A stretch of 64,000 nt of DNA. It comes from Proteromonas lacertae. Its lineage: Eukaryota; Sar; Bigyra; Opalinata; Proteromonadidae. The translations under genes were made by a program, and so were the position numbers. Shown one piece after another: positions 1,896-57,429 of the stretch (position 1 is the stretch's first letter; each line of letters begins with the position of its first letter). The stretch covers positions 1-64,000 of the forward strand of contig NGBS01001178.1 of NCBI GenBank assembly GCA_002245135.1, in the 5' to 3' direction. Under the pieces are notes generated by a model. It had not been told where the DNA came from. It was given only the letters and a program-made list of their open reading frames with translations, and made no database searches.

Positions 1896-1980
1896 ATTTC
1901 CTCTAATATTATATACTGATTCTATATTCTTATTTTTGTTTTAATCTATTCTAGTCTATACTATAGTCTAGTCCTCCACC

Positions 1981-2020
1981 CCGCCGGCATCCCCCCCATC
2001 GGCCCCCCACAGGGGGGCTG
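1981..2020. other. GC-rich island with perfect C/G hairpin
   Basis: An isolated run of C and G in a strongly AT-rich region, just downstream of the polymerase remnant. Bases 2002-2008 (GCCCCCC) and 2012-2018 (GGGGGGC) are perfect inverted arms around a 3-base loop; another run of seven Cs at 1991-1997 offers an alternative pairing partner. Function unknown: it could be a structural end feature of the inserted element, a pause or terminator hairpin, or a fold-back site. Confidence 0.7.
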
Positions 2021-2154
2021 GTCAGATAGACACATAAAAAATTATAATCCTCTAGTATGATACTATCATATTGGAGGAAGAATTTTTTATAATTCATCAT
2101 TAGAGCTTTCAAATTTTTTCAATAATATTATGTTTAAGATAGAGGATTTTTCAT

Positions 2155-2292
2155 TTGTCATCTTTTTTAATAAGAGGATTTTATAAAATTTATATTTCCT
2201 CTTTTAAAGAGGATCTAAAAATCCTCTTTCCTCTTTCAGAGAGGATCTAAAAATCCTCTTTTAGAAGAGGATCCTCTATAAAAGAGGATTTC
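2155..2292. repeat. Clustered GAGGAT / ATCCTC inverted repeats
   Basis: About eight copies of AGAGGAT or its complement ATCCTCT occur within 140 bases, arranged as nested inverted repeats such as AGAGGAT-CTAAAA-ATCCTCT (around 2210-2230 and 2244-2262). Related GAGGAT words also occur near 2050-2080 and 2140. The tract can fold into alternating hairpins. It replaces the gene body expected downstream of the promoter-like module at 2402-2453. Confidence 0.65.
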
Positions 2293-2401
2293 ATGCATTT
2301 ATATTATATATATTTATACTTCAAAACTTCTACTAATATATAATAACGGTTTAAAAGGGCTGAATAACTGAGATATAAAGAATTATAATTTGATAGAATA
2401 G

Positions 2402-2453
2402 CCAATCAAATCACTCCAAATGTAACCAATCAAATAACAGCATTCCGACCAAT
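2402..2453 (-). promoter_or_regulatory. Three-CCAAT module, copy 1 (orphan promoter)
   Basis: CCAAT boxes start at 2402, 2426 and 2449, spacings of 24 and 23 nt. Exactly the same spacings occur at 9567/9591/9614 and 41176/41200/41223, where the module lies about 120 nt from the start codon of a giant NTPase gene on the minus strand. The preceding bases (CTGAGATATAAA at about 2369) are also shared with copy 3. Here only an ATG at 2298-2296 with a 20-codon frame in the GAGGAT repeats follows, so the module looks orphaned. CCAAT boxes are typically bound by NF-Y; that is family knowledge, not shown here. Confidence 0.6.
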
Positions 2454-2776
2454 CAAATCTCTCCAACAAATATTTCATTTTAAGTATAATAAAACTATTA
2501 TAGTTTATATTTTATTTATGATATTGTAGATATTATAACTGAGAATTGTAGAGGTTATAGTAACTAATAGTAGTAAATTAGGTTGAAATACCGATCTTCT
2601 TGTATGTATAACAAGCGTTTTAATTGTATGTATAGTCATATCAGCAGTAATTATACATTATATTTTGTTAAAAGATGAATTGGTTATTGTTTGTATTATG
2701 TATTGTGTTTTTAGATAGATTATTAATTTATTTGGGAAAGAAAAATATCTCACTTTAAAAGAGAGCTTGAAAAAAG

Positions 2777-2895
2777 CTCAAGTATTTCGCAATAAATCTC
2801 AAGTTTTTAGAAAATGTCGGTTTCACACTTAAGTATTTTGAAAATAACTCGAAGGCTTGCTTAAGTTTTTCGAAAATTATCTTAAGTAAAAGTAA
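2777..2895. repeat. Degenerate CTTAAGT(A/T)TTT(C/T)GAAAAT repeats
   Basis: Four imperfect copies of a unit of the form CT(T/C)AAGTATTTTGAAAAT occur at about 2777, 2801, 2838 and 2871, just beyond the 3' end of the giant NTPase gene. They contain no open frame. They may be part of its 3' flank or terminator; no function can be assigned. Confidence 0.45.
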
Positions 2896-2911
2896 AATCA
2901 CTGTATTACTA

Positions 2912-5900
2912 TTATTTTTTTACAGTATTCAATATTGAAGATGGTTGTATATATTTTATAAAAAATTCCTGTTCATATATTTCTTTCTTAAATTCTGACA
3001 GATAGAATGTTTTATTAACCTTTCCATTAACTTCTCCTATACAAATGTCATTAAACTTAAATTCTGTTTTAGTATTTGATGGATTTATACTCACTATTCC
3101 ATGTAGTTTAGTATTTCGATCTATTATTCGATTGAAGTGTGATATAAGATTTTTGGGGCATTTAATTTTCTTGTAGAATTTCCTTTTGATGAAACAAATA
3201 CATAATGAAAATCTAACCATCCCATTGTCATAGCTAATTTTATAATACATTCATCAATTATATTATTATATCCTTCATCTATATCACTACTTATTTTTAT
3301 TCTCTCATCACTTATAATATGAATAAAGCAGTTATTCATCAAATAAATCATTTCTCTATTCTCAAGAGTGGCTAAGTGAAGTATACAAACTCCTTTCATT
3401 TTAGTACAATATATATCACTATCGAATAATTCTTTAAACTTTTCAAATTCATTGTCTTCTATGTTTTCTAAAACAAGTGCAGTTCTAGTATCCTTAATAA
3501 CTAATTTTTCTGTATGATATAAACAGTTGTAAAAAACTAGTTCTTCAAATAATAATTGAAATATATTACCTTCTTTTTTACTATCAATTCTGTTAAAGCG
3601 ACTTTGAATTTCTTTAATGTTATTTGGTTGTGCTGTATGTTTAATACTATAGAAGATAAAATCAAATATTTCATTAGATATAAACTCCATTTGATTGTTA
3701 TCGATAGAACGAAAATCAATATATGAATATTTCACCATATAATGGCATAATGTACTATCAAATGATGTAGTATTTGTGGATGTATTTTTATTATTTTCAT
3801 TTGATGAAGGTTCACTTAGATATCTCAATAAAAAATCCATATAACTAAGACCACCTATTATTCGTTTAATACCTTTTGAATATAACTCTTCCCAATAATC
3901 TCTACCATAACATATATCATATATTGCTGAATAATAGATATGTCTTGGAACATTTCCATATTTACTATTAAATCCATTTTTATATATTGATTCTTGCAAT
4001 TCAATTGGTAAACATTTTCTTTCCCATTCTTCAATTTCATCCTTAGTGAAAACATCCATATAATAATATATTCGATTTATTTCTGAATCATTAAAATGTT
4101 GATAATTATTTATATCTGGTGAAGTAACATAGAACAATATTGAAGCATTTGTACTATCTGGATCAAGGTTATATGAATCAGATATAGCTATTTCAGAGTA
4201 TTTTTCATCATTTTCTACTTCAATTACATTTTCTTCGATTAATCTATATTTATCATATATTTTTTCCTTTGAACTTTTATGTACTGTTGCTGCAATTTTC
4301 AATTCACTTTTCTTTGATTCATCCTTTTCCTCCAATTCTATCCATTCTTTATTCATTGCATTTTTCTTTTTTTCTATTTTTTCATTCAATTCAATAATTT
4401 TCTTTAACAAGAATATAATAAAGGAGGTTTTACCACATCCTGGATTTCCTCTTAACAAAATTTTAAATGAATATTGTAAATCTGTCTTTTCATCAAACAG
4501 CTTTTTCTTCACATACTCTATATAAGGTTCTATATCAGATTCTTTATAATCACTTGTTTTAAGAATAGGAGTAAATAATATATCATCTTCTCTTATACAC
4601 TCATTCAATATTTCAACTATTAAATTACTACTTTCGTATTTTTCATCTTCGAATAATTTTTCCAACTTAGCAAATAATATATAATATTTTAATTCATTCC
4701 ATATATCTTTATAAACTTGTCGGATATACACTCTCTTTTCAGGATACTGATATATTTCACAGTCAATACTAATTGTATTATCATAATTTAATATTACTGG
4801 TTTTTCAAATATTCGACATAAAGAATTCGTTTCTATTATTAGAATATTATAATAATATAAATATACTTTTACAGGTTGAAGAATAATCTTTTAGACTTCC
4901 TTTCACATTTGTTATTGAATTATATGAAGATATTAACTTTTCATAATACTCTTTTTCGGCATATTTAAATAAATTAGATATATAATTATCAATATCATCA
5001 CGTATTTTAGGTAATACTGACAAAAACACTTTGTTAGTATTTTCATCTAATTTTCTTTGAAGCGCAGAGAATAATACATTTATATTTTCATCATTTATAG
5101 GAATTGGTAATTTAGATAATAACTCTTTAATATCATCATCAGTAGCTTCATTAGTGATAGGTAATATTGATAAAAACTTATAAATATCATCTTTAGTAGG
5201 AACAGCTAATTTAGATAAAAATTCACTTCTATTAACTTCACTAATAGTGAAAGGTAATCCTAATAGAATCATATTAATAACTTCTTTACCAGCATCATGA
5301 GGTAATTCTAATAAAAACTTTTCTATATAATCTCTACTAGAATTAACGAGTAAATCTAATAATAAATCATTTAAACAGTTTCCTTCATTATTAAACATGC
5401 CATAATTTGATAATATATTTTTTATGCCATCTTTCTTAGCATCAACAAGTAGTGTTGATATGAACTTATTTTTATCCTCTTCAACAATATTAACAGGTAA
5501 ATTATCTATAAACCTGTAAATATTATCTTTATTAGCATCTTCAGTTAAATTAGACAACAACATCTCTATACCCTTCTTCTTAGCATCAACAAGTAGTGAT
5601 GATATTAATTGATTCTCTTGATTACTGGTAATAGGTAAATTATAAAATGTCATTTCAATTTTCTGTTCATCAAATTTAATGTTTAAATCATTGAAAAACT
5701 TTTTCATATCCTCTTTAGTAATCTCAACAGGTAAACTAAATAATAAATCATCCAAATAGTCTATATTAACGGTAACAGTTAATCCATTAAATAACATTTC
5801 TACATCCTCTTTATCAGCTTCAATAGGTAAAGCTGATATTAATTTATTTCTATCATCTTCACTAATTGTAAATCCCAATTCAAATAACATCTTTTCAATA

Positions 5901-8900
5901 TTCTTTACTTTAATAGTAATTTTCAATCCAAATAATGAACTACATAATTTCTCTTTAGCATCTTCAACAAGAACTGTAAGTAATACTATTTCTTGATTCT
6001 GTTTATTAATAGTCAATTCTGATTTTAACTGTTTATAATAATCTTGATTATCAGAAGAAAGTGAGAGATATAACTGATGTTTATCAATAGGATTGTCTAA
6101 TCCACGTAATATTTCATCTAAGTATTGTTTAGTAGAATCAATAGGTAAAATTGATAATACTAAATCAATGAAATGTTTTGTAGGTAAAGTAAATCCAATA
6201 AAGTCTTTCAAATGTTTTACGTAATTACTTTTATCTTTGTTTAGTACCATACTTTCATCTATTTTCCTACATACTTTTTCAATACTATTTACTATCATTT
6301 TATTCTCTTTATTCAACTCCAATTTATTACCAGGTTTACTTAAACCATCTATAATACTTTTGTATTGATCTATAGTTTGTTTTAAACTGTCTTCGCTATT
6401 CGGTTTTATAATAATATCTTTAAAGTCATTAACCACAATTTTAATATCTTTTTCATTCTTAATTCTCTTTTTAAATGGTTCTTGAATAAGTAAACTTGGA
6501 TAAACTGTTGGTGTGTATTTTAATGTTGTACTAGCATTATATCTTTTCATTTCAGGAGGGGTGGTAGTTATACTTGTTAAAACACTCAATAATTGTTTTT
6601 CAGTTATTTTTAAAAGACTAATTCTAAGTCTTTTGGATTTTATAGACATGATTATATCTTCTGGTATAATTTTCTTTCCATTATCTTTTACAATTACTTT
6701 TACTTCAGATTTTATATCCCATTTATAATTCTTCTTCATTTCTTTCATCATTTCTTCTTTAATATCTACTCCATACTGCCCAAAACCTGCATGACCACCT
6801 ACAAGTGGGTGAGTAACTACATCACGTTCATATGCAACAATTATTATTTTAAATATAGGATTGCACTTGTTTAATTCATTTTCAATATCTTCTAAACTTG
6901 TGCTTGTCGATTTTAATTCTTCTTTAATTGACTATAATAATAAAAAAAAATGTAATAAAATATACAGTAATAATTTCTTTATCCATAGCATCTTTCTCTG
7001 CATCATCTAACTCATTGTATATTACATCGAAGAAATAGTCATCCAGATTATGAAATAACTGTGAGTTAATTTGATTATTTAGTTTTAATTTTACTAATTC
7101 ATTTGAATCATCAAGATCAAATATACTTAACAATTGAAGTTGATATTGAAATGAAAGAATATCATTACTATTATAAATTTCATCACTATTATACATTTCA
7201 TCACTATCATTACTATCATCTTTTTTTATTGTATGAAATGTATGAAGTTGATCTATATATAATTCGAATGTTTGAAGATCATTTTCAGATTTAAACTGTA
7301 AATATGATTGGAATATATAATAAATTGTGTATATATTACTCTTCATTGATTGTATTTCGTTACATGTATTTTTTAATTTTTCTAGATTATCTTTAAAAAC
7401 AGGAATTTGATTATTTAAATTGGTCAATCTATCTAATAAATAATGTATTGTTTCTTTAAACAAATTAATTAAACCTTTCAATTCATCAATTTTTTCACTG
7501 TAATGTAATTCATCAAGTAATCCTAGAAGTTGTTTTTTAAATACTTCTGATTGCATTTGTAATTCTATTATTATATTTGATTTATCTGGTTCATTTTGTA
7601 TATCATTTAATTCTTCAATAAACATTTTATCCACTTCATTTTTCATATTTGATATTGCTTTATTTATCTTTTTTGGCTTTACTGAATCTGGTAATCTATC
7701 TACTAGATTTTTAGATATAAGTAATAAAACTTTCAGTTTATATGCTTTAATTGGTATGGAAATATCCTTCTTTTGTTCATTCTTGATGTGTACAGTTGTT
7801 CGTTTTACAGATTTCATTTCGTCCATTTCTATTTTTAATTTCTTTATATGTTCGACTAATTCATCTAATTGTTTTGTTAATACTTGTAATCGAATTTTCT
7901 CATTTTTGGGGTGCAATTCACATTCTAATTCTTTAAATCTATTCATATCACTATCCATAACTTTCAAGAATTCTTCTTTTCTAACATTACTATATATTTC
8001 AATCAGACTATTGTCAATGTCATTCCTACAGCTAATTTCATTGATTAAAAACTATAAAAAATAATAGTAATAGAATATTATATACGTAACTTTCACAGAG
8101 GATTCTTTTACGCTTATCCATTTTGAATATTATATCTTCTTTATAATTAATTGGTATATAACCAAGTTCATATATTGAAGATTCTCGATCAAAATCTTTT
8201 GGAAGTGGCTTATCTGCAGGAGGATTTAATATGTAGTTTATCATCACATCCTTATGACGATTGTATATCATCTAATCAATTATAATATTACATATATATA
8301 TACATTCAGAAATACAATTACAGTATCATTTATAGGATGTGTATCTGAAATTGTCATTTGAACAGATGTAACACTGGATTTAGTGATAATACAGCCATCT
8401 ATTGCTGGGAAATTATGAATTTCACTAAAATCAACATATAATGTATCAACTTCTGTCTTTTCATTATCTTTATCATAATACCTTTCACCATCTTCTGAAA
8501 GATATTGAGCAAAGTCTTTCATATTGTCATGATAAGCTAAACCTCCTTGAATATATATTATACTACTTTCATCAATCAACCTATTTCTTATTATAATGTG
8601 CATCATTCTTTCAAACTTAAAACCATCTCCTTCCTCCTCAAACAAATTATACAACTTTGTAAACTTTTCTTTACTATTAAAGCATCTTCTTAGAATTTCT
8701 CTTTCTATTTCCTTTGATATAAACTTTAATCTTTCTGGAACAAAATCTACTCTATCAGTATCATATATATAAAACCATTCATTGTATGAAGGTGGTATAT
8801 ATGATGGTAAAATATCTTTATCTTCATTAAATATTCTATCATTAATTGGATGTTCGTATTCAATCAACTTATGTTTCCAGTAATTTTTTTCTTCATCTGT

Positions 8901-9448
8901 GAATGGTAGTATATAGAATTGTACTGGAGCTCTTTTATTACTCATAACTTTGTATTTCTCTGCTTTTGGAGAAGAAACCATAATGACTATCTCACAATTG
9001 CTGTAGTCATCTTCTTTAATGGGAATATCATCACTGATTATTATCGTTTTTCTGTTTGTATCAGGTAGAACTATTGTTTCTTGATATTCTACACCATAAG
9101 CTTCTCGAAAATAATAAGTAGTTGTATTATTATTATCAGTACAAATTATAAATATATTATATTCCTTCAAATCAGTATCTATGTTTAAACAGTATGCTAG
9201 AAAACAGCTGAACGTTGTCTTACCTAATCTATCATTACCATAAACCAAAAAACATTTTTGATATTTTGATCCATGGTTCTTGATAAGACTCTTCATCTCA
9301 CTGTAAATACGAATGAAGCAATCTCGAACTATAAGGAACGGATCAACATTAAAAAAAAAGGCTTGTTATTGTCATATTTCCCATAATTTGGATTTATTTT
9401 CTTTAGGTTATTAAATCCCAATTTATAATCTAAGTTAATTAAACGCAT
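2912..9448 (-). CDS. Giant protein with two Crinkler/RHS-type P-loop NTPase modules (about 2,120 aa)
   Basis: Assembled from six exons joined by GT...AG introns at 8272-8303 (32 nt), 8052-8085, 6932-6965 and 4833-4866 (34 nt each), plus a 35-nt intron or frame break at 3183-3217; all joins keep frame. Order: N-terminal helical part; VRDCF motif and Walker A GNDRLGKTT (about nt 9235); SSP motif and PFTDEE; FPAID...QMTISDTH (about nt 8330-8390); long coiled coil (7.9-7.0 kb); 16-residue helical repeats (about 6.2-5.0 kb); second NTPase with Walker A GNPGCGKTS (about nt 4440), SPD, FTKDEIEEW and YGNVPRHIYY. The order VRDC-Walker A-SP-W-YGxxPR matches the NTPase of Crinkler (CRN) effectors and trypanosome RHS proteins; the D...QxT part resembles their restriction-fold remnant. 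Exon 1 has a one-base break at a T9 run (9351-9359). Function is inferred, not known. Confidence 0.75.
4990..6200 (-). repeat. Tandem 16-residue (48-nt) protein repeat array
   Basis: Within the giant NTPase, roughly two dozen consecutive units of about 16 residues follow the pattern L-P-(I/V)-x(4)-(E/D)-(D/E)-(I/V)-x2-(F/L)-(L/I)-x2, for example LPIEADKEDVEMLFNG, LPVEITKEDMKKFFND and LPHDAGKEVINMILLG. Two stretches (5432-5460 and 5576-5604) are almost identical at DNA level and lie 144 nt apart, three units, showing recent internal duplication. The pattern predicts a helical solenoid between the two NTPase modules. Confidence 0.7.
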
Positions 9449-9566
9449 GATTAAAGAAACAAGTAATATTGGAGTAAATTTGTTTCGATTAATACAAATT
9501 GAATATAATAACGACCTTAAAACAGTTAATCGATTAGATAAATGTAATTATATTTGGAATGAATAG

Positions 9567-9618
9567 CCAATCAGATAGCGCCAAGTTTAACCAATCACAG
9601 ATCTTAAAATAAACCAAT
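9567..9618 (-). promoter_or_regulatory. Three-CCAAT module, copy 2, upstream of the giant NTPase gene
   Basis: CCAAT boxes begin at 9567, 9591 and 9614 (spacings 24 and 23 nt), 119-170 nt upstream of the proposed start codon at 9448 when read on the minus strand. A second conserved block, TTTTTGCATTTCGTTTTTCT followed by CATGATATATAA (about 9637-9669), is shared with copy 3. Since it contains a TATATAA word readable on the plus strand, bidirectional activity is possible, but I see no gene to the right. Confidence 0.6.
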
Positions 9619-9679
9619 CAAATTTCCTAATTTTATTTTTTTGCATTTCGTTTTTCTCATGATATATAATAAAATGAAG

Positions 9680-10601
9680 GTTAGTTTTATGTCGATTGGC
9701 TAACATTTACCTGTTATAATTAGTTTCATGATGTTGAGTGATGTGAAGTGATTTTTATAGGTGTTGTTAATTTTAAACATAGTATTCAAATGAGTTATCT
9801 ATTATTGAGTTGAATTTATTTGAACTGTTGTAGTTATATTATTTCTTCAAATACTAATATTGTCTTTTGCTAATGAATTGAAATATTTAACAAGTGACAG
9901 TGATATAGTAGTTATGAAGTTAGATTTGAGTAGTTTACACAGTATTAGAGTGTTTTGTTTAGCATATGAAGAGAAAGAAGATCCATAGAAAATTATAGAA
10001 TAGGCAAACATAGCCATTGAAGTATCATGATCAACAATCACACTATTCCATTAATAAATAATATTAGGAGAAAAAATGTAATAATTGATTTACCATTTGA
10101 AATATCTATTTACATCATATAATGACACAATTAATTTAAGACATAGTTCGCCGTTCTTTTCACTATCTAATATGTGGAATATCTCCATTGGAGGAATTAA
10201 CGCTTTATAGTGAAATCAATTTATAGTAAAATCAATGTTTTTAGTTACATTTTGTAAACAATTTATATACAATTTGTAAACAATTTTTACTGATTTATAG
10301 TCTATTTTAATAGATTAAACTCTCCAATTTTTAAATCAACTTTATATATATAATTGAATAAACTGTAGAGATGACTACCCTGCCGGAGTAGAACAGCTCA
10401 CTAAATCTAGAGGTTTACTAAATCTAGAGATGATTAATACAATCTGTGACATTGTGCCAGAGTCCCATTTATACACTATATATAAGTGTCTGGTAGACAA
10501 ATGGCCAACTATGACAAACGGCACACAACATTATTTTTGAATGGTAATAATTAGTAAAGTATATTTTTTAGTTTTATTCTATATAAAATAACAAAAACAA
10601 T
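9680..10601. other. Intergenic region without convincing gene
   Basis: About 920 bases of AT-rich sequence between the promoter module and the DnaJ gene. The only frame over 60 codons (minus strand, 9847-10041) lacks recognisable domain content and any splice-linked exon. A short direct repeat, ACTAAATCTAGAG, occurs twice near 10405-10430. Nothing else is supported. Confidence 0.6.
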
Positions 10602-24005: not shown

Positions 24006-26203
24006 GGATAGAGAAAAAATGAAACAACCAGAACAACCATCATCTACTTCATCAACAACAGTTAAATCAAAATCTCCTGATAAAGTTTATATTAATTGTC
24101 ATCATAATACTCTTATATATGAGAATATAAACTATAAACCTCCTAAAGATGCAATAATTACAATTGAACCAAGTATATATATATATATAAATCTAGATTT
24201 ACCCTATCATATTCGATTTAATAAAGACAAAGGAGTAATAGAAGGATATGTACATGATGATGTGAGAAATGGAGAATATGAAATGAAAATAACTTATATG
24301 GGATGTAAAATAAAAGAAATAACAATTGTTTTTAATATAGTTTTATCTCCCGTTTTAACATTTCGAAATGTCCACTTACAACCGCAACAACCGCAGATAG
24401 AACCACAAATTCAGCAGCAACAACAACAACAACAACAACAACAATCTATATTCTCTACAACACCTCCATTATCATCAATTCCATCAACAACATCTACTGT
24501 AACTCCAACCGTAACACCAAATAATTCACAACAACCAATACCTAAATTAGTATCATCTAATATGATATATATTGATTGCGAGAAAAATAAAGATATAAGA
24601 CAGGATATATTTTATATACCTCCTGATGGTGCAGTTATCACAATAGAACCTGGTATATAATACTTTATATTCTATTTATTAATATATATTTCTAGAATTA
24701 CCCCATAATTTAAAGTATGAAAGAGAGAATGGATTGATAACAGGAATTATGACTAGTAATATAATAAATGGTTTATATGAAATAAAAGTAAATTATATGG
24801 GTAACTTAGTTAAAGAAATAGCTATTATTATAAATGCTGTTACAGTATATACAACATCAATCTATGAATATTTACATCTGGATAAAAACTATACTAATAA
24901 TAACAACCAACAGAATTCTACATATCAATCTGATCGAAGTAAAAGGATTTTAAATTTAATTGTATCAAATGAAATTAAGATAAATGGATATGTAGGTGAT
25001 ATATTAGATGTTGATACTTCTTATATTCCAACAACAACGTATAGAACATCAATTGATCCACGTATTTTATAATTATATATGTTTGTTTTGTCATAGCATT
25101 ACCTTCTGGAATATTCTATAACTCTAAAAAAGGAATAATTTATGGTTCAGCAAAACAACCAATTAATGACCAGAAATTTATAATTACTATAAATGATGGA
25201 AAATATAATCTCATAAGGAAAATTATTCCATTAAATATTAACATTCTACAAAGAAATGTACCTCAACAACAACCTCCACCTCCTTCTGTTAATCAACCTA
25301 ATGATATGAATAAAATAGTCATTAATGGAACTATGAAAGAATATTTACATTATACACTTCCATTTCCATTTGATCCAGATGATAAATATAATTATACATT
25401 TAACCCTTTATTGCCTTATAAACTCTATTGTCATAACAATGTAATATATGGCTATCCTGAAATACCATGTGATAATAAAGAAATTAAACTGATCATAAGT
25501 AATCCAGCAAGTAATTCAATTGTTAGAATAGTTCATTTAATATTTAATATAGCTGATATAAGAAAAGCAGAAAAAATAGGTGATATACTTTCTCAAAATA
25601 ACAAAAGAAAAGCTGATGATGATTTATCATCATATAGCAATAAAAAAAGAAGATTAACAACGAATATGAGTAAATTGAATAAACATATAAATAATTCTAA
25701 TTCTAAAGAGAAACAACAATACTCAATAAGTATGCAACAGAAACAGCAACAATATGGATTTAGTTATGTACAATATCGCAATATGTTTGATAAAAACAAT
25801 TATATAACACCACCACCACTTCCTACTATACCTAAGAAATGTATAAATGATGATTTGTTATATAAAATATAGTTAAACCCTTTATTAAGGATCAAGACCT
25901 TGTTAATATGAAATGGGATAAATTGAGAATAAAGAGTTGGAGATCGAAGGTATTTAATTACAGATACAGATATCTCGAACCATATGAAGAAGAAAAGATG
26001 GGCGATTTTTCTAAAGAAGAGGATGAAATTTGTGAAAGAGCATATGAAAAGTATGACTATTTGGAAGGAGAAGAATTAGTATAAATTTACTCAATTATGT
26101 TTATATATAGTGGAGTAAAGTTGCATTACATTTGATTGGACGAACAGGAATGCGATGTCGTTATCATATGGAGAAAAAACATGGGAAATTATCACCAACA
26201 TGA
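22317..26203 (+). CDS. BTB-BACK, four He_PIG (Ig-like) domains and C-terminal Myb/SANT fusion protein
   Basis: Starts MKLSKKVPDEG, then across the intron 22349-22380 a BTB domain (LMVKNKLSDIILKFSD) and BACK-like helices. A Gln/Asn tract (23885-24004) follows, then four repeats of a He_PIG-like fold, each with I-x-P-x-LP near an intron (24-nt intron at about 24170; others near 24653 and 25051), e.g. NLPYHIRFNKDKGVIEGY. An intron at 25841-25872 joins to a Myb-like part (KDQDLVNMKWDKLRIKSW, DFSKEEDEICERAY) and an intron at 26079-26110 to WSKVALHLIGRTGMRCRYHM, a SANT helix 2-3. Two frame breaks: an extra G near 23345 and one inside the CAA tract. BTB proteins often recruit Cullin-3; the Myb end suggests DNA binding. 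Both roles are inferred. Confidence 0.65.
23885..24004 (+). repeat. CAA trinucleotide microsatellite (poly-Gln/Asn)
   Basis: About 38 near-perfect CAA units interrupted by extra A bases. Each extra A changes the codon read from CAA (Gln) to ACA (Thr) to AAC (Asn). The flanking frames on the two sides of the tract do not match, so the tract must differ by one base from the true length, or the repeat has expanded out of frame. A second shorter CAA run lies at 24415-24445. Confidence 0.85.
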
Positions 26204-35380: not shown

Positions 35381-38300
35381 TTAATAATAACAATCCTTAT
35401 ATTTATTGTTCTGAACATTTACAAAGCTTATGTAGAATTGTATTTCATCAAATGTATAACATATTACATCTTTATTCTTCATTACTTCTTTATAGAGATA
35501 TTTTTTATTTCTACCTTTAGTCATTTCTTCAAATTCTTTTGGATATTTGGATATTTTTCGATTAGCTTTTAATTTTATACTCACTTGATTATTTGGGCTT
35601 ATATAGAATAATCCATATGGAGAACTATCATTAATTGATGTTGAGGTTTTGAAAAACATTCTATATAGGTTTTGAAGAATCATTATCATCTCAGGTGCTA
35701 ATGTATGACTATTTCCAACTGTAATTTGAATACCATATGGACCTAGTAATAAATCTATATCGGGGAAACTAGGATTATAACTCAAATCGATTATTTTAAA
35801 TATTGTATTACTTTCATTAGCATTAAATTCACCTATTTCTCTTTGTAAATCACCATCATTTGAAACTTCAACTATTTCCTTTTTATCGAAAACAATATAT
35901 TTATTCCTTCTTTCATCTACTTCAAATTCTTTAATTTCATTAATCAAACTCTCATAAAAAGGATTACAGTTCTTCATTAAAAATGATATGATTCTTTCAT
36001 ATAATATTCCGGCTAAACTTCCTACTGGATTATCTTTTAATAATTTCATCATTCTTTCACAACTTTCTTTATCATTTATCTTATAAAGTCTATCACATAC
36101 CATCTTTTTGATTTCTTCAGATATAAATATAAGACGATTGGATTTAAAAATACCATTTTCATCTTCATATGTATCATAAATCAATATTCTATCATATTCA
36201 ACTTTTGAAAATGGAGATTTATCTATCCCTTTTATTATTTCTTCTATCATCACCTTGCTCTTTTCATTAGTAATTGTATTTTCGAATTGAATTACTAAAT
36301 TCTCATCATCATCATAATATCCAATAACACCTTTATATAATGGATATTTTTCTCTATATTCATATCTACTTCCTTCATTTGTGAAAAGTCCAAATGTTAT
36401 TCTTTTACTATATGCAAATCCTTTAAAGTCCATATCATAATATATCCAAGGTTTGATTGATTCAACTTTTTCTACTTCTTCTTTTGTAAATGGAGGTATA
36501 TACATTATTGATGGACATCTTTTACTTTGAAATGTTTTATATTCCTTCTTAGATGGATTGGCTAATAATATTATCATTTTTGCATCAGCATAATCATCTT
36601 CACCAATTACTGTTCCATCAGATATTACAATTTGAATATTATTTCCCTTATCATAATAAGGATTATTACCTTCTCCTTTACTTATATTAAGTATACTAGC
36701 ATAAGAATAATAATCATGAATTATTTCCATAAGAATATCAGCTAAAATTGTTTTTCCTATTTTTTCATGACCAAATATTAAATAATTTCTTTGATTATCA
36801 TAATTGAAATCAAAAGTTGAGGGAAAAATAAAATTAAACATCTTATAAAAACAATCTCTCATCAAATAAACATTTTTATACTGTATATATATATCCATTA
36901 GTTGAGATCCTTCAGATAGTTCTAATTGTTCTTGTTGTTGAGATGTTGGTAATTGTTGTTTCCGTTGTAGTTGTAGCTGTTGTTGTAGGTGTAGTTGTAG
37001 TTGAATCAGTGGTGGTAATTGCTCTAGTTGTTGTTGCTCGACATGTTGATGTAGGTTTAATTGTTTTAGTTGTTCAAGTTGCAGCTGTTGTTGTTCCAGA
37101 TGATTTAATTCATCCAAGTGTTGTTGTTGTAGTTGTAGTAGTAGTTGTTGTTCTTCTAGTAGTAGTAGTTGTAGTTGCTCTTGTAGCTCTTGAAGTCGTT
37201 GTTGTAATTTCAAAAGTTGTGGTTGTTGCTGTTGTTGTTCATTTTCTTGAAGAGTTTGTAGCTGTTGTAGCAATTGTTCTAGTTGAGGTTGTAGCTGTTG
37301 TTTCAGTTGTCCTATTAGTTTTAGTTGTTTTTCTTTTAAATCTTCTAGTTGTAGTTGTAGATCATCAACAATTTCTTTCTTTTCTTCTAGTTTTTTAGTT
37401 ACTAATTGTGATTGAAGATTTGATATGTTGATGATATCACTACATTTTACTACTCTCTTTTCTATTAAACAATATATAAAATCACCATCTTCCTTTGCAC
37501 TGTATTTCTATTTTATTAAAATATAAAATATACTCTTATAGATTCTATAAGATTTGTTTTAATTTTGTCTGGTATGTTATTCTTATTAAACTCTTTACCT
37601 TTATCTAATTTCTCACCATCTAATAATACTTTTATAAACACTCCATTCATTATCAAATCAAAGAAATTATTATCATCTAATATATAAAATACTGTATGTA
37701 ATGCTTTTGGAGGATGATAAGATGGAACATATAAATCAGAATTGATTTTGAAATTAGGATTCTTAATCATGATATTTCCTCCATTAAAATCATTACATTT
37801 CAACTTAATTATACCACTGCTTAATTCATATGCTATTATCTGTTTTAATGCCATTCTTCTCATATATTCATCTTTAATTGATGTATAATATTCTTCAACT
37901 TTGTGATATTCATCTTCATCTTTAGGTGGAATGAATTTACATACTATAAATTTTTCTACTTCTTCAGAAACGAACTTTAAATAGTCTTTTGGTTTTAATA
38001 TAAAATCTTTTAATTCGTTATCCCATATTGATATTAAATCATATTTCAATATTATATTAGATAATTCATTCATTTTCAATTTTTCTTTCCCCATATAATC
38101 ATTTACAAACTTACTATAACCTGTTGTTCCTACTACACTTTCTATCAACTGTTTATAATATATCCAATAATCACCATTATAGTTACTGTTATATAAATAA
38201 TGGTAATATATTTGTCGAGGTATATTACCATATCTTTCACATACTTTACCAAAATCAGCATCTTTATCAAAACCAATACAGTTTGTAAACCACTCATTGA

Positions 38301-41050
38301 TTTCAGTTATATCTAAACAATCAAAATATAACTCTTTACGACTTTTTTTGTATTTATCATTATTATGAGTATCAGGAGAACTGATTGATATTACTATGTT
38401 GCTTTTATTAAACTCATAATTAAAAGTATCAACTATTATCAATGATTTTCTAATACTACCTGGATCAATTGCACTTTTAAAGAGAATGTATTCACCATTA
38501 ATATTTTCAAATTTGTATACTATTGCTTTTAATGGATTTCCATCTTTTTTCCCTTTAATGAAATATATACTACTTATCTTTTTACATGCTTCCAAAATAT
38601 AGTAATTAAATCCAATACCTAAATCATTTATATCTACTCCAACTGGCATCTTCATCTTTTATTTTTCCAACATCAGTATTTATTTGATCATATGTGTTTT
38701 TTATTTTATGAAATGTATCTTCATACTCTGTTTGAAGACCAACAATTTCTCTAGTGATTTCTCCAATTCTTTTGTTATATAATTCTATTGATTTTTCCTC
38801 GCTGTGTATGTTATTCAATCTGGTTAATATTCTTTCTGTAATTACGCATTTACATATAATTCTATCATCATTACTGATATTTTCCGTTGATTCTTTTAAT
38901 TCATACTTACCATTTAATTCCTTAATATTTAAATCAAACTGTCCTTGGCAATTTAAAACCAAATTTTCTTTTGAAGTTTTAATTTCTCTTTCTTCATCAT
39001 ATATTTTTAATGTATGTGTTTTTCCCACATTAGTATATAAATCAGTATAATCACCTATTGCTTTAAATCTATTAATCTCTGTTTCAATATCTTTATTAAA
39101 ACCATTAATCAATTCATTACTTTTTTTTATATCGAGTTGAAGTTGCGCTATTTCAGCTCGTAATGAATCTATTTTATTATTCTTTTCTACTATTAATTTT
39201 GCTGTAAGTTTATCAATATTTCTCTTTTCTTCATTCAATTGATTCATCTCTAAATAACTCTTTTCTTTCTTCTTTTCGTCTTTATTATAATCATATGATA
39301 GATTATTCTTTAGAAAGAACAACAATACATAAATAAACGAGGTTTTGCCAATACCTGGTTGACCTGTTATCACTATATCAAAACATGATTGTGCAGATGA
39401 TATAAGTTTACATATATTTTGAAACATTGTATAATAACAATCCCTTATGTAAATTATATTCTTGGGGAATTGAAATACTTTTACATTTGCTTTTGAAAAC
39501 TCTAAATACTTCTTCTTTTCATCATTTTCAACAAACTTACCATCTTCATCAATAACGAGTTTATTAAGATTGACTATTTTCAAATTATTCACTATTCTTA
39601 CAAAACTATCTGAATAATCTAAGTATATTGTATTTTCATCATCAAAATATTGTAATAATATTATTAAATCATCTAAAGAATTAACATGATTTACATATTC
39701 TCTTTCTCTAACTTCTAATTGAAATCTAGATAATATTATGTCTTTTATTGTATTAATATCAATGTTTGCTGGATTGGATTTGATTGATAGAAGTTCTGAT
39801 ATGAAGTAATACTTTTCATAATTGTATATACTATTAATAGTATTTGGTACTTTTATTCCATGCAATACAGTTTCACCATCTTCAACACTCAATGAATTAA
39901 ATAAGTGATAATTCTCTTTCTCTATATAATATTCTATTAAGTTTACTAAACCTTTTCCATCGCCAATACTAATAAATGGGAAAGTTACTGTTGACTCGAT
40001 TTTACACACTTCCATTATTTCATTTCCTTGTCTAATGTGCATTTTCTTTTCATTCATGTCGTATATTACTTCATATACTTTTCCTTTAATACCAAATATT
40101 CTATCTGATTTTTCTAGTATCTTTCCATTTTCATCTATCTTTTGAGATGAAAAATTAAACAACTTTATACATGGAAATAACTCATTTGATGAATCTGGAT
40201 TTTTATAAAAACCAAAACTAATACCTTTTATACCAATACTCATTATCTGAAAATAGAAATGATAAATTCCACTTTTCTCTTTCATTTCTTCATTTATCTT
40301 GAAATTAAAAACACCATTACCTCGATCTTGAAGATTCTTATTACACACTACATATTGAATTATATCACCACTACGGTTATTATTATATTTGTATAATTCA
40401 TTGTTATATTTATAGTAACTTACTTCATTATAACCATTTTTTAAATCATCATTAGATATATTAATTATAAATCTTTTTATCATAGTTAATGGAAAATCCC
40501 AACAACCTAAATATTTAACTGAAGCATTTGTACAACCAATAAATGGGTAAACTGGTGTTGAACTGATTCTACATACATGAACTTCTTTATTATCTCCTTG
40601 TCTAATTGACATTCTATTGTTAATCATATCATAGATTATTTCATATGTAGATCCTCTTATTGGACGTAAACTGAATTCTGCTTCAACAGAATTTTCATTT
40701 TTTGAATAACCAAACCTAAAAACATCTGTAAAACTCTCTACTTGGAATTTGTAATGATAAATCTCATTCTCAATCACATCTGAGATTATTCTATCTTCTT
40801 TAATAACTTCATTTATGACTAAATTTTTAAAACTAATAGGAGGAGATTTTGTTGAGTCTAGATCATCAACATTACTTGGCTGTTTGTTTTCATCTTCCTC
40901 CACACCTTTAACATCTTCTGTACTTTCTGTAAATCTTAAAATAGTAAAACCATCTACATTTTGTTTTTTAAATCTCAAGGGTGTAATTTCAACATCTTCC
41001 CTACCTCTCTTGGTCTTTACTGGTGTTGATGTTGGTGTTACTACTTCCAT
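35381..41050 (-). CDS. Giant protein: two SPRY-like domains and two Crinkler/RHS-type NTPase modules (about 1,880 aa)
   Basis: Order from the N terminus (MEVVTPTSTP...): nuclear-signal-like KTKRGREDVEITPLRFKK; two SPRY/B30.2-like units (about residues 95-190 and 260-370: YEIIYDMINNRMSIRQGD and YEVIYDMNEKKMHIRQGN); NTPase 1 with IRDCYYTMF and Walker A GQPGIGKTS (about residue 562), a coiled-coil insert of about 200 residues inside the NTPase, SSPD and YGNIPRQIYYHYLY; then, after a 26-nt intron (37508-37533), a Gln/Leu coiled coil and NTPase 2 (MRDCFYKMF, Walker A GHEKIGKT, ANPSKKEY, PPFTKEE) ending in SFPDIDLL...IQITVGNSHT. The motifs match Crinkler/RHS NTPases. Near 38650 the frame shifts by one base at an A4 run; a 16-nt GT...AG intron would also fix it. 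Role inferred: effector-like or defence/conflict protein. Confidence 0.75.
36905..37400 (-). repeat. Gln/Leu-rich low-complexity coiled coil
   Basis: About 165 codons dominated by CAA, CAG and CTA/TTA between the two NTPase modules of the giant gene. The protein reads as a nearly continuous Q/L/E heptad-like coil (LQQRLQELQEQLQLLLLEEQ). On the opposite strand this produces a long Val-rich frame that is only a shadow. Confidence 0.8.
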
Positions 41051-41175
41051 GGTAATTTAGAATTTTTAAACTAATTCAATAATATATATTCTAATACTTC
41101 GAAATTTTATATAATAACAGGATTAAGATACCTTATAGCTGAGATATAAAACAAAATGATAATTTGAATGAACAG

Positions 41176-41227
41176 CCAATCAAATCGCTCCAAGTGTAAC
41201 CAATCAATTTTGTGTTTAATAACCAAT
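41176..41227 (-). promoter_or_regulatory. Three-CCAAT module, copy 3, upstream of the second giant NTPase gene
   Basis: CCAAT boxes start at 41176, 41200 and 41223: spacings 24 and 23 nt, identical to the other two copies. It lies 126-177 nt from the start codon at 41050. Flanking blocks are also conserved: CTGAGATATAAA (about 41139) shared with copy 1, and TTTTTGCATTTC then CTCGTGATATATAA (about 41247-41278) shared with copy 2. The rest of 41228-41569 holds no gene. Confidence 0.65.
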
Positions 41228-44928: not shown

Positions 44929-47900
44929 TGCCACCACCTTCAACAGTTTTGAATTTAGTACCAGTGTATGAATAAATATTTAATATATATTACACAATAG
45001 ACAATACTTTGGTATGAAATGTGATATATCAGGCAACATATGGTTTCTTGATGAAACTTTATATTGTTACATAGCAGGAAATGCATGTATTCTATATTCA
45101 TCTGAATCAAAAACACAAAGAATTATATATCCATCTGATCAATGTGAATGTATCACTTCACTAGCAGTGTCAATGAATCGTAAAGCATTTATATTATGTG
45201 AAAAAGTAAGAAAAGGAGCAATAATTAGTGTATATGATGTAGGACAACAAATTAAAAGACGTAAGCCAATCACATTAGCAGAAAATGGTCCAATAGAATA
45301 TTTCAATGCAACCTTTTCACCAGATAACAAATTATTGGCTGTACAATCAGGAGCTCCCAATTATCAGATTTACATTTTTGTGTGGGACAAAGGAAGATTA
45401 TTAGGAACAGCTACACCAGTAACAGAGACAGGAAAGACAGTAAATAGCATCAAATTCCATCCATTAGATAGTTCAATATTAGTAGTAAGTGGAAAAGGAT
45501 TATTGATATTTTATCGTATTAGTGAAGGTGGATTTAAAGCATTACCATTGAATACTTTAAGAAGAGAATTAGGTGATATTCAAAGTGGTATATTTGTCAA
45601 TGAAAAGAGATGTATTTGTGCAACTGATCGAGGTGATTTGATATTGTTTGAAAATACTGGTAGTTGTATTGAGTTAAAGACATACCTAAATTGTTCACCT
45701 TCAGATGGTAATGCAATATACTGTATTTGTCCATTTGCGAAAGGATTCATTTGTGGTGGAGTAGATGGTACTGTGAGAGTGTTTGAAGAGTCAGAAGACA
45801 CTTTAGAATATTATAAGATATTTAGAACATTGCATACAAAGAAATCCATAGATCCAGTTATTCATATAACAATAAGTCCAACAGAAGATTTGATGTTATG
45901 TTGTACAAGAGATTGTCAAGCTTATATTCTTTCTTTAAGTAACCTAGAAATGCTTAGACCAGAAGATGTTAAATTAGAATTAATAATAGGTCCGTTTCAT
46001 TGTGCAAGCTCGAGTGGCTTGAGAAAAATAAATGATTTAACAGTCTGTCCAAGAAAGCCATTGTTAGCCTCTTGTGGTAGTGATCACAGTATTAGAGTAT
46101 GGGATTATGATAGTAAAAGTATTGAATTATACAAACTATTTGATGAAGAAGTTCAAACTATTACATTACATCCATCAGGATTATTCATAGCTATTGGTTT
46201 TTCATCAAGGTTTAAATTAGCCAATATATTAATCAATGATATAAAGCCTTATGCTGAATTCCCAATTAAGAATTGCGCTATTGCAAGATACTCATTAGGA
46301 GGTCATTTCATAGCAGCATCTACACCCTCTAATGCTATTTATATATTAACAACTTACACTGCCTGTAATTTACATCGAATTGATTGGTCATACAGGAAAA
46401 CCAATCTCCTTAGAATGGGCAGATAGAGACAATATCTTATTCAGTGCATGTTTAGGAGGTTCAATAATGATGTGGGATGTAAGAAATGGTATAAAAATCA
46501 AAGAATTTACAATGAGAAATATAATGTGGAATTGTATCACTGTTCGTTATGATCATACAATGGTTTATGCAGTTGGTACTAAAGCAGATGATGAATCAAC
46601 ATCAGCATTATACGCTATAGAATTTACAGCAGATGGTAAACAATCAAACGTCAAATATGACCACGAATTCCCAAATTTGAAAATCAATTCAGTTGTTTAT
46701 AATAATACAGCTAAAACATTGTTTTTAGGCCATTCTTCCTATGGTAGACCTGGTGTAATTCAAGCAATGCATATGCCATTAGGAGATTCAGTTCAAATCT
46801 ATCAATGTCACAGTGGTATAGTCCATCGATTAGCATTATCTTATGAAGAGAAATACTTAGCTACTTGTGGTGATGATGGTGCAATTTGCGTATTTAATTT
46901 CAAAGGTTTAGGACGATTGAATAAAGAGAATGCTTTACCTTATGCAGAAGAAGTATTAATTATTAAAAACGATTTGGAAGAGAAATATGGATTATTAAAT
47001 GAATTGAAAGCGAAAGTAGATGAATTAACCAAACATAATGAACATCAATTGAAATTAAAAGATGATGAACATGAAGAAAAAGTGAAGAAATTAACAGAAG
47101 AAAGTGAATACAATATTCAAGAACAAATATCAAAATATGCAGCTTTAAGAGATACAACTGATATTCAAGAAGGCAATTATGTTAAGAAAATAAGGCAATT
47201 ACAAGGAGAATATGAACAAGAATCATTAGAATTAGATAAATCACAAAAAGCAAAGATACAAACTGAAGTTGAAAGATATGAAGCCTTATGTCAAGAAAGG
47301 GAAGAATTATCTTTAAAATGGGATGAAGAAAATAGAGTTTTAAGAGAATCAAATGAAAGATATATTCAAGAACTACAAGCTGAATATGAAGACAAATTAA
47401 GAAGAGAAAAGGAAGAGTGTGATTTATTAGTTGAAAAGAAAAGAGAAATTCAAGCAAGACATGATCAAACTGAGAAGGATCTAGAAGAAGATTGCGATCA
47501 AGAGATTGAACAAATGAAGAGAGTATTTGGTGAAAAATTAAAGACAGAAAAAGAAGGCAACTTTGAGATTGAAAGGTGAAAATGGTATGATGAAAAAGAA
47601 ATTTCGGAAGTTTGCAGAAACAAATTGCAGAACAGAAGAATAAGATTCAACAGTTATTAAATACTGAACAAGATCGATATTCAACAATAAGAGGTTTAGA
47701 AAAAGACATAATTGGCCATAAGAAGGAGATAAGAGAAAGAGAAGAGACTATAGCTGATAAAGAAAAGAGAATTTATGAATTGAAAAGAAAGAATCAAGAA
47801 TTAGAGAAATTTAAATTTGTATTGGAATATAAAATCAAAGAATTAGATCGACAGATTGAACCACGTCAGAAAGAAATTATTCGATTAAAACAACAGATTC

Positions 47901-55309: not shown

Positions 55310-57429
55310 TTAAGAAACTAATAATAATTCAACTGAAGTGTTTTGACCATATAATTCAGCATATGAATATAACGGAGAAGGTAAATCTTTAACAAGTAAA
55401 ACAGGAGATGAATTATTATGACTTATCCAAAATTCTCTTTTATTCATATCAACAATCATTTCATAAATTGAACCATTTCTATGATTTTTGACATTTGGAT
55501 TTTTATTAACAACTGCTTCCAATATTGACAATAATAAGCAATATCTTGACTTTTACCATAATGAGCAACATAATTACATGTTGTTGATTGATTATGAATA
55601 TCATCACCAGAATATGTATTATTAGTTGATAATCCTAACATCATGATATCATATAAACTTCCATTTTGATGAAATTTATATTTGACATGATAAACTCCAT
55701 TTTCCATTTTCAAATCCAAATAACAATAACTCCAACCATCATTTGTATTTGTTATTAATTTTCCATTATTTGAGATTGATATTCCATCACTTTTGTTTAA
55801 TTCTGTGAATTTTATATCAACAAATTCTAGTGATATTTTAAATTTCTTTTCATTTACAATATTCTTACAACTTATTTCATATTCTCTCTTTTCGATTTCT
55901 TTATCTACTTTTCCATGAATTATTCCATTCTCTTTATTTATCATTAAACCATCTGGCAATGAAGGATTGATTGAAAATTCACATCGATTTCCATCAAATG
56001 ATGGAATTATTGATATTTCTTCATATAATAGCAAATGAATAATTCTGAATTGAGGATATGAAAATGATGTGATTTCTTTTGTTTTTAATTCATTCAATAA
56101 TTCTTTATCTTTCATTATTTCTATCATTTCTTCTTCTTCTTCGATACTCAATTTCATATTCTGAATATATTCTATTAATAATTCTTTAGATTTGGAATTT
56201 AGACAATTATCTTCATTCAATATTCTAAAAAGAATTTCTTTTCCACATACTTCCTCCATTATTGAAATACTCTTTTTATCATCAATGAATAAACATATAC
56301 TTTTCATCGTTCGATTTCTTTTATTCTCATTATATTCTATACATAATCTATCCAATAGATTTCTCTTTTCGATATTTGAGATATATTCTATTTAAATATA
56401 TTTTTAGTATTTATACTTTCCTTTTTCATATTTTTATATTTCATTATCATCAATACTATTTCCATCATTTTTATATTATTCATTTCTAATATACACATTA
56501 TTTCATCATTCAATTCTTCTTCTTTCATTTTATCCAACATTCCTTTTTCTTCTTCATTAAAGTCTTCTTCTTCATTATCTTCATTGTAATTGTTGATTAT
56601 TACATTTTGAATTCTATCATCTTTTATTAAATATAATTCTATGTGATTTTTACATTCATTTTTCTTTAATTCTATTTTCATTTCTTTCAACATTTCTTTA
56701 TTCTCTTTTTCTATCTCTTTCTCTTTTATCTTTTCTATATCGATATCTTCTTCTATCAATTGTTTAAAATCATCTTCTATCTCTTTATTATCTTTCTTAT
56801 TCTTTTGGAATTTATACCATTCTAATAATCGATTTAATAACCATAACTCATTCACTATTATCACATCTTTCATATTTAATATCTCGATCAAATTATTCAT
56901 CTCTAATCTCAACAAATATTCATTCTTATATAAATATTTATATCCTCGCTTTTCTATTTCCATATTTTTCAAGTCTTCTATCTCTCTCAAACATCCACCA
57001 AATACATTACATATATGAATTAATTTCATTAATACTTCATCATCTATATTATTCTTCACAAATTCATAACAATCATTTATTATCTCTTTTTCACAATAAC
57101 ATAAACAAAACATCAACACTTCACATACACTCTCTTTACACATTATCAGTTCACCACCACTGTAGTATTTCTCCATCTCATAATAGCCAATTTCTTCGAT
57201 TTCTTCATATAACTCCAAAACCCCAACAAACTCACGATCTAACAACAGTTTCTTTACAGTTTCATTTCCATTCACTAAAATTGATTTGATTGACATTATT
57301 CGATTATCTCCAATCTTCACTTCTATATCACCAAAACCACTTTCAACCAATTTTCGACATAATCTATCATAAATATAAATATAATATATACCCCTCTTCT
57401 CTTATTTCTTTATTCACTTTTATTATCAT
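55310..57429 (-). CDS. BTB-BACK, He_PIG and SPRY-like domain protein
   Basis: Starts MIIKVNKEIREEG; the intron 57364-57391 lies at exactly the same codon position as in the BTB gene at 22317 and joins to LCRKLVESGFGDIEVKIGD (BTB). BACK-like helices and a Glu-rich coil follow, then across the intron 56388-56416 (29 nt) a He_PIG repeat (SINPSLPDGLMINKENGIIHG) and a SPRY-like domain (GWSYCYLDLKMENGVYHV... SIYEMIVDMNKREFWI). The frame shifts -1 near 55535, inside the SPRY-like domain. Paralogue of the BTB-Myb gene but with a SPRY-like end, like that of the giant NTPase gene at 35381. Confidence 0.68.

Follow-up and report, generated by a model that had tools for sequence, protein, structure and literature searches.

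What kind of protein needs two P-loop NTPase modules in a single chain, and what might it do with them? The question is raised by a multi-exon gene on the minus strand (about 9448-2912) of a 64,000-nucleotide stretch of Proteromonas lacertae DNA, contig NGBS01001178.1 (the whole stretch is called the window below), in which the two modules, A and B, are accompanied by a coiled-coil-like exon and a 16-residue repeat. We propose, with a probability of roughly 0.4, that the gene belongs to a family with two diverged and complementary NTPases per chain, optional coil or solenoid inserts and a USP-type hydrolase in part of the relatives, which would work as a switch with a ubiquitin output. The family is large and evolves fast, and its proteins seem to be a novel type of conflict or defence molecule.

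Two homologous NTPase modules in one chain

The profiles of A and B are homologous (hhalign 97.9%, E 4.8e-13, 199 columns), and the Walker residues are invariant in both modules (G48, K49 and D112 in A; G134, K135 and D219 in B). The long open frames of the gene follow each other on the minus strand as A (9365-8283), exon 2 (8271-8041), a coil-like exon (8051-6933), a repeat exon (6931-4850), B (4890-3127) and a C-terminal piece (3250-2915). The parts, all on the minus strand, are:

9366..9448: N-terminal leader, in a frame different from that of A in the window copy
8283..9365: module A exon, a P-loop NTPase with a possible restriction-like C-terminus (open frame, 16-paralog alignment, invariant residues)
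9216..9239: Walker A of module A, GNDRLGKT (paralog alignment)
8337..8612: E252 to H343 of A with FPAIDG and VQMT, a possible restriction-like domain of putative fold (alignment, model, invariant residues)
8041..8271: exon 2
6933..8051: coiled-coil-like exon
4850..6931: repeat exon, with 16-residue units at about 6148-4925
3127..4832: module B, a P-loop NTPase with YGNVPR and a C-terminal domain whose fold is unassigned (genome matches, alignment, profile comparison)
4426..4449: Walker A of module B, GNPGCGKT (within the invariant region)
3943..3960: YGNVPR of module B
2915..3250: C-terminal piece, in frame with B in the paralogs L013 and L031 and out of frame in the window copy

Each module carries its own signature. 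Walker A, [ST]SP, FPxID and [QK]MT were present in all 16 A sequences and [VIC]R[DE][CS][FY] in 15, with YGxxPR and the acidic-Trp segment in none. All 14 B sequences contained IRx[VS]Y, Walker A, the acidic-Trp segment and YGxxPR; [ST]SP occurred in 12 of them, [QK]MT in one and FPxID in none. A preliminary description of the gene had seen one and the same motif order in each module. The elements are there, but they are not repeated in both, YGxxPR belonging to B and FPxID to A. The divergent A of locus L041 shows YGGIPG together with FPAVDG..YQVT, so that a YGxxPR-like motif perhaps predates the A/B split.

In a 21-sequence set of A including five metagenome relatives, E252, H256, D323, T338 and H343 are invariant. 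The predicted model of A places a helix at 248-264 and strands at 308-312, 324-328 and 331-340, with pLDDT mostly below 50 in this region; a restriction-like fold could look like this. Between the C-terminal parts of the two modules hhalign finds no credible match (2%), and a restriction-like C-terminus in both is therefore not supported. Thus, the restriction-fold remnant assigned to both modules by the preliminary description would, if at all, be found in A alone.

The genome searched comprises 50.2 Mb in 1181 contigs, with the window on contig C117. It gave 155 matches to module A, 100 to module B and 95 to the repeat exon, counted as exon-wise pieces, some contigs being near-identical. At 20 paralogous loci chosen from the A matches alone, the order A, exon 2, repeat exon, B is kept on a single strand in every case, with the coil exon matched in 19. 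After merging of the pieces, 64 of 74 B places were preceded by A on the same strand at a distance of up to 9 kb, seven had A downstream and two had A on the opposite strand. Conversely, 42 of 106 A places were without a listed B; the only one of these that was opened, L041, contains a divergent B (E 1.5e-96) followed downstream by a USP. Both P-loops fall within one stop-free frame in L033, a 1359-aa frame on contig C855 unites matches to A, B and the Pfam family UCH, and A and B pieces share a 1227-aa frame on C1180 (L034). In these single-frame relatives (L033/C855 and C1180) A matches only over residues 9-231, so that its FPxID part is missing. On contig C363, A recurs at 3775, 10563, 17340 and 24117, the copies about 6.78 kb apart, as a tandem array or an assembly repeat.

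A second family with the modules in reverse order (family II, B'-A') is represented in the window itself:

35384..41056, minus strand: second dual-NTPase gene, order B'-A' (genome matches, alignments)

Genome-wide, B' gave 111 matches and A' 74, merging into 108 and 59 places, respectively. In L036 and L037 a single frame contains the two P-loops in the order B'-A', and L038 combines A' with the second half of B' only. Profile comparison paired A with A' (E 8.5e-28, 330 columns) and B with B' (E 2.6e-31, 313 columns), and A also with B' (E 3.5e-11, 178 columns). On this comparison, the divergence of A and B looks older than the two gene orders.

The collinear order at all 20 loci and the occurrence of both P-loops in one frame in relatives support the fusion of A and B, and with it the two NTPase modules in one protein of unusual layout that the preliminary description had proposed. 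That A and B are separate adjoining genes, as the different frames of the window exons could suggest, is hardly credible and was rejected on the strength of this collinearity and of the single-frame relatives L033, L036 and L037.

Relatives outside the genome are few. Profile searches of a protein database, one of which scored the 7991 candidates with most shared words, yielded six relatives of B and five of A, all metagenomic and from one source marked 'lgn'; module A as a single sequence found none among 899 candidates. For one relative of B (P0001) and one of A (P0007) the longest contig is given as 4788 bases in each case, as would be expected if they shared a contig. Relatives of B were absent from the viral and prokaryote contigs searched, and relatives of A from the viral contigs, the only one of the two sets searched for this module.

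Hydrolase tails, repeats, an upstream element and selection

A USP-type domain follows the NTPases in part of the relatives. Among eight loci picked by eye in which the frame runs on past B, six tails matched UCH (PF00443) above cut-off (E 1.9e-10 to 5.6e-27), L033 remained just below and L014 gave no match. UCH also exceeded the cut-off in L039, the continuation of L033 (31.7 bits), and in L041, where it shares a 1135-aa frame with B (56.3 bits). Cys and His boxes are present in the UCH tails of the paralogs, whose PDB matches were USP2-like entries. In ten domains read, the catalytic position is occupied by Cys in L023, L033, L036, L041 and one of the two L024 domains, and by Ser in L018, L019, L020, L030 and the other L024 domain, the two USP-like domains of L024 standing in tandem at 6407-9000. 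Of 134 UCH matches in the genome, those near the NTPases lie on one side: 21 of the 74 B places (at 217-901 nt; some of the 21 represent near-identical contigs) and three of the 59 A' places (at 707-759 nt) were followed by one on the same strand within 3 kb, and none of the B and A' places had one upstream or on the other strand. The USP frame of L036 differs from its B'-A' frame.

The middle part of the protein is variable. Across lags 3-39, hydrophobicity autocorrelation over residues 231-660 of the repeat exon was highest at lag 16 (0.37), with lag 32 second (0.24). A profile trained on this exon recognized 18 units in it, compared with a mean of 0.7 and a maximum of 4 in 200 shuffles; this count is circular, since training and counting used the same exon, whereas the autocorrelation is not. 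Hence, the 16-residue period of the preliminary description is borne out, and its estimate of about two dozen units comes down to 18. In 19 paralogous stretches, 0 to 27 units were counted over three frames, and the solenoid is thus optional and of variable length. Pfam Caf4 scored 23.6 in the repeat exon against a cut-off of 21 without any single stretch passing, which we take as a repeat artefact. For the coiled coil described earlier, the coil-like exon itself recurs at 19 of the 20 loci, and its Pfam coil matches are weak.

A pattern with a pair of CCAAT motifs recurs upstream of the dual-NTPase genes. Genome pattern search placed it in the window at:

9565..9597: CCAAT-pair element, 200 bp upstream of the first codon of module A
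41174..41206: CCAAT-pair element upstream of the B'-A' gene

With up to two mismatches, the genome holds 35 such sites, compared with none for the reversed control. Twenty-nine precede a listed gene by no more than 5 kb, all in one orientation: 27 before B' (1.7-2.7 kb) and two before A (about 0.2 kb). The element is borne by 27 of 108 B' places, and in family I, the A-B family, any CCAATC within 400 bp upstream was seen in six of 20 copies checked. It is thus mainly a family II feature, shared by the window gene and L031, and offers a handle on when many dual-NTPase genes are turned on. Six sites are without a listed gene. One of them, at 2400-2432 of the window, has the same orientation and lies downstream of the two-NTPase gene, just before a mobile element; it is perhaps the promoter of a lost neighbour. 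The B places followed by a USP, the reverse-order family and this CCAAT-type element are new here.

Selection on both modules is purifying but loose. Median pN/pS was 0.55 for A (91 pairs, maximum 0.68) and 0.64 for B (78 pairs, maximum 0.77), and the ratio of substitution rates (dN/dS) between the window copy and L013 was 0.49 and 0.36, respectively. As to gene structure, four of the five intron junctions given in the preliminary description fit short GT..AG introns (32-50 nt). GT..AG pairs are present at the fifth as well, but L013 and L031 run through it continuously in the frame of module B, and this intron was rejected.

Kinship with known NTPase systems

Membership in the Crinkler/RHS families, as first proposed, is not established. 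RHSP (PF07999) stayed below its cut-off of 25, its best genome match having 20.9 bits and the L035 frame scoring 19.4, and the Crinkler ubiquitin-like header (Ubl, PF20147) had a single genome-wide match of 15.9 bits against a cut-off of 24.6. The comparison with other P-loop families, named in the preliminary description as its own check, went against it: nSTAND3 (PF20720) passed its cut-off of 27.2 in L036 of family II (27.7; L037 reached 19.6), and RNA_helicase (PF00910) passed that of 21.5 in the metagenome relative P0001 (24.0). For the window modules themselves, nSTAND3 was not listed at E 1. The Pfam scan of module B gave P-loop families below threshold throughout, and that of module A no family match; in a PDB sequence search A had no match and B weak ones only. 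In PADLOC, IetA was matched weakly, with at most 25.8 bits (L033), and all matches of an NCBIfam scan were far below cut-off.

STAND-type and CR NTPases form one broad class, the latter being placed in a CDC6/ORC1-STAND clade. The family may therefore be akin to CR proteins. The family resembles these multi-copy proteins in its P-loop NTPase with invariant Walker A and B residues, followed in A by the possible restriction-like part. It differs from them by two NTPases per chain in two orders, by the solenoid and by the lack of a Crinkler header, with RHSP below cut-off. Published CR C-termini include DUB-like peptidases of Ulp1 type according to the excerpt of PMC5289972 used here, and the USP of our paralogs is absent from the CR peptidases named in that excerpt. 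Among the open-licence papers listed in literature searches, none dealt with dual-NTPase Crinklers or USP-fused CR proteins. From STAND/AAA+ NTPases (nSTAND3, ORC/Cdc6, TnsC, Avs5) the family is set apart by its two modules per chain and by the missing nSTAND3 match of the window modules. The paralog tails resemble USP-type hydrolases in their UCH scores and Cys/His boxes; unlike these, they are fused behind a dual NTPase, have Ser at the catalytic position in five of ten domains and are missing in the window copy.

Publications connect CR-like NTPases with effectors and with selfish elements that kill embryos. The portion of PMC11342252 that we used describes Medea1 of Tribolium as a CR-type NTPase with a restriction endonuclease. 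In CifB, according to the same source, restriction-like domains, often inactive, are fused with a deubiquitinase for which a guardian or co-effector role is proposed, the endonuclease domains being thought to derive from CR-like mobile elements related to Medea1. On this partial view, Wolbachia CifB (CidB), with its restriction-like domains and attached deubiquitinase, is the nearest published analogue, by layout and not by sequence. It and Medea1 differ from our family, which has two NTPases, a USP instead of an Ulp1 or OTU deubiquitinase, and the eukaryote itself as host. By analogy, the USP tail apparently ties the dual-NTPase family to ubiquitin by an independent route.

A possible switch and its alternatives

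In the proposed mechanism, A and B would pair within one molecule in an AAA+/STAND-like manner. Binding of a target by the variable middle part would change the ATP state of the pair, and the switched pair would present the USP as output domain. The USP might then remove ubiquitin from the target or protect its own protein, comparable to the co-effector and guardian roles considered for the CifB deubiquitinase, and the restriction-like part of A might help by binding nucleic acid. Copies whose USP carries Ser in place of the catalytic Cys and those lacking the USP, such as the window copy, may be decoys, partners or decaying members. Since the signature is divided between two fused modules that occur in opposite orders, the idea of a heterodimeric switch is testable.

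Several observations weigh against this reading. The structure models are weak (mean pLDDT 55 and 58) and found no Foldseek match at E 0.001. The cross-pairs B/A' (29.8%) and A'/B' (72.5% over 53 columns) are weak. No UCH lies near 53 of the 74 B places and 56 of the 59 A' places, and the C-terminal piece of the window gene (2915-3250) has no UCH match. Moreover, the window gene carries two frame breaks, one between leader and A and one between B and the C-terminal piece. Upstream of A, its frame stays open for 0 residues in this copy, versus 29-56 in each of 14 paralogs. The breaks may stem from slight decay or from indels of the assembly, the latter because module A is likewise divided between frames in L027 and L031.

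A conflict role, already considered in the preliminary description, would fit the many copies, the pN/pS medians and the optional domains. In its boldest form, a polymorphic conflict system would extend over the genome at about 180 places, 74 of B and 108 of B' with partial copies and near-identical contigs counted in. Complementary NTPase halves with different signature parts would make up a heterodimer within each protein and switch a deubiquitinase, some of the genes being controlled by a common upstream element; active and Ser-type USP copies would act as attacker and decoy against siblings, mates or invaders. We regard this extension as doubtful.

Rather unlikely, to our mind, is an intracellular sensor of the organism's own immunity, that is, a STAND-like receptor whose solenoid or coil binds a signal, whose NTPases oligomerise and for which the USP is one of several outputs. 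No classical sensor or signalling domain was found, the nSTAND3 match seen in family II does not extend to the window modules, and, to our knowledge, NLRs do not carry two NTPases per chain.

A selfish element of toxin-antidote type, akin in kind to Medea1 or CifB and spreading by copying, would account for the restriction-like pattern in A, the deubiquitinase tails and the many dispersed and tandem-looking copies, and the link between CR-like elements, Medea1 and CifB drawn in the cited part of PMC11342252 is in its favour. No antidote gene was identified, although no search was aimed at one, and no terminal inverted repeats were seen around the window gene, where a search of 1900-10500 returned weak arms only (72-95% complementarity, 18-36 nt). 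On balance, we consider such an element distinctly unlikely.

Less probable again is a secreted Crinkler/RHS-type effector directed at other organisms. The weak RHSP resemblance in family II and the motif order noted in the preliminary description point in this direction, but both the Crinkler header and RHSP fall below cut-off genome-wide.

Very unlikely is a mostly decayed, transposon-derived repeat family without present function: copies with internal stops, the frame breaks of the window copy and the adjoining DNA-polymerase-type element would agree with it, and the long open frames, the pN/pS maxima, the invariant Walker residues and the recurring upstream element argue against it.

The adjoining element is a gene for a type B DNA polymerase at 15-2310 of the window (PF03175, E 3.8e-11). 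Its portion 378-2310 is 98.3% identical to a copy next to L030 on contig C782, which suggests that a recent mobile element borders the two-NTPase gene. Farther along the window, the gene at 44984-47579 is one that we take to resemble a ciliary protein with WD repeats and a coiled coil, which would point to an organism with flagella. Searches for further protein types gave a Nop56-like match, a Rab GGTase beta-like match and one match to the chitin-synthase family, the last of which also responds in bacterial controls. Sub-threshold He_PIG matches were obtained at 25057-25872 and 55456-56391, in genes rich in low-complexity or, as we presume, BTB-like sequence.
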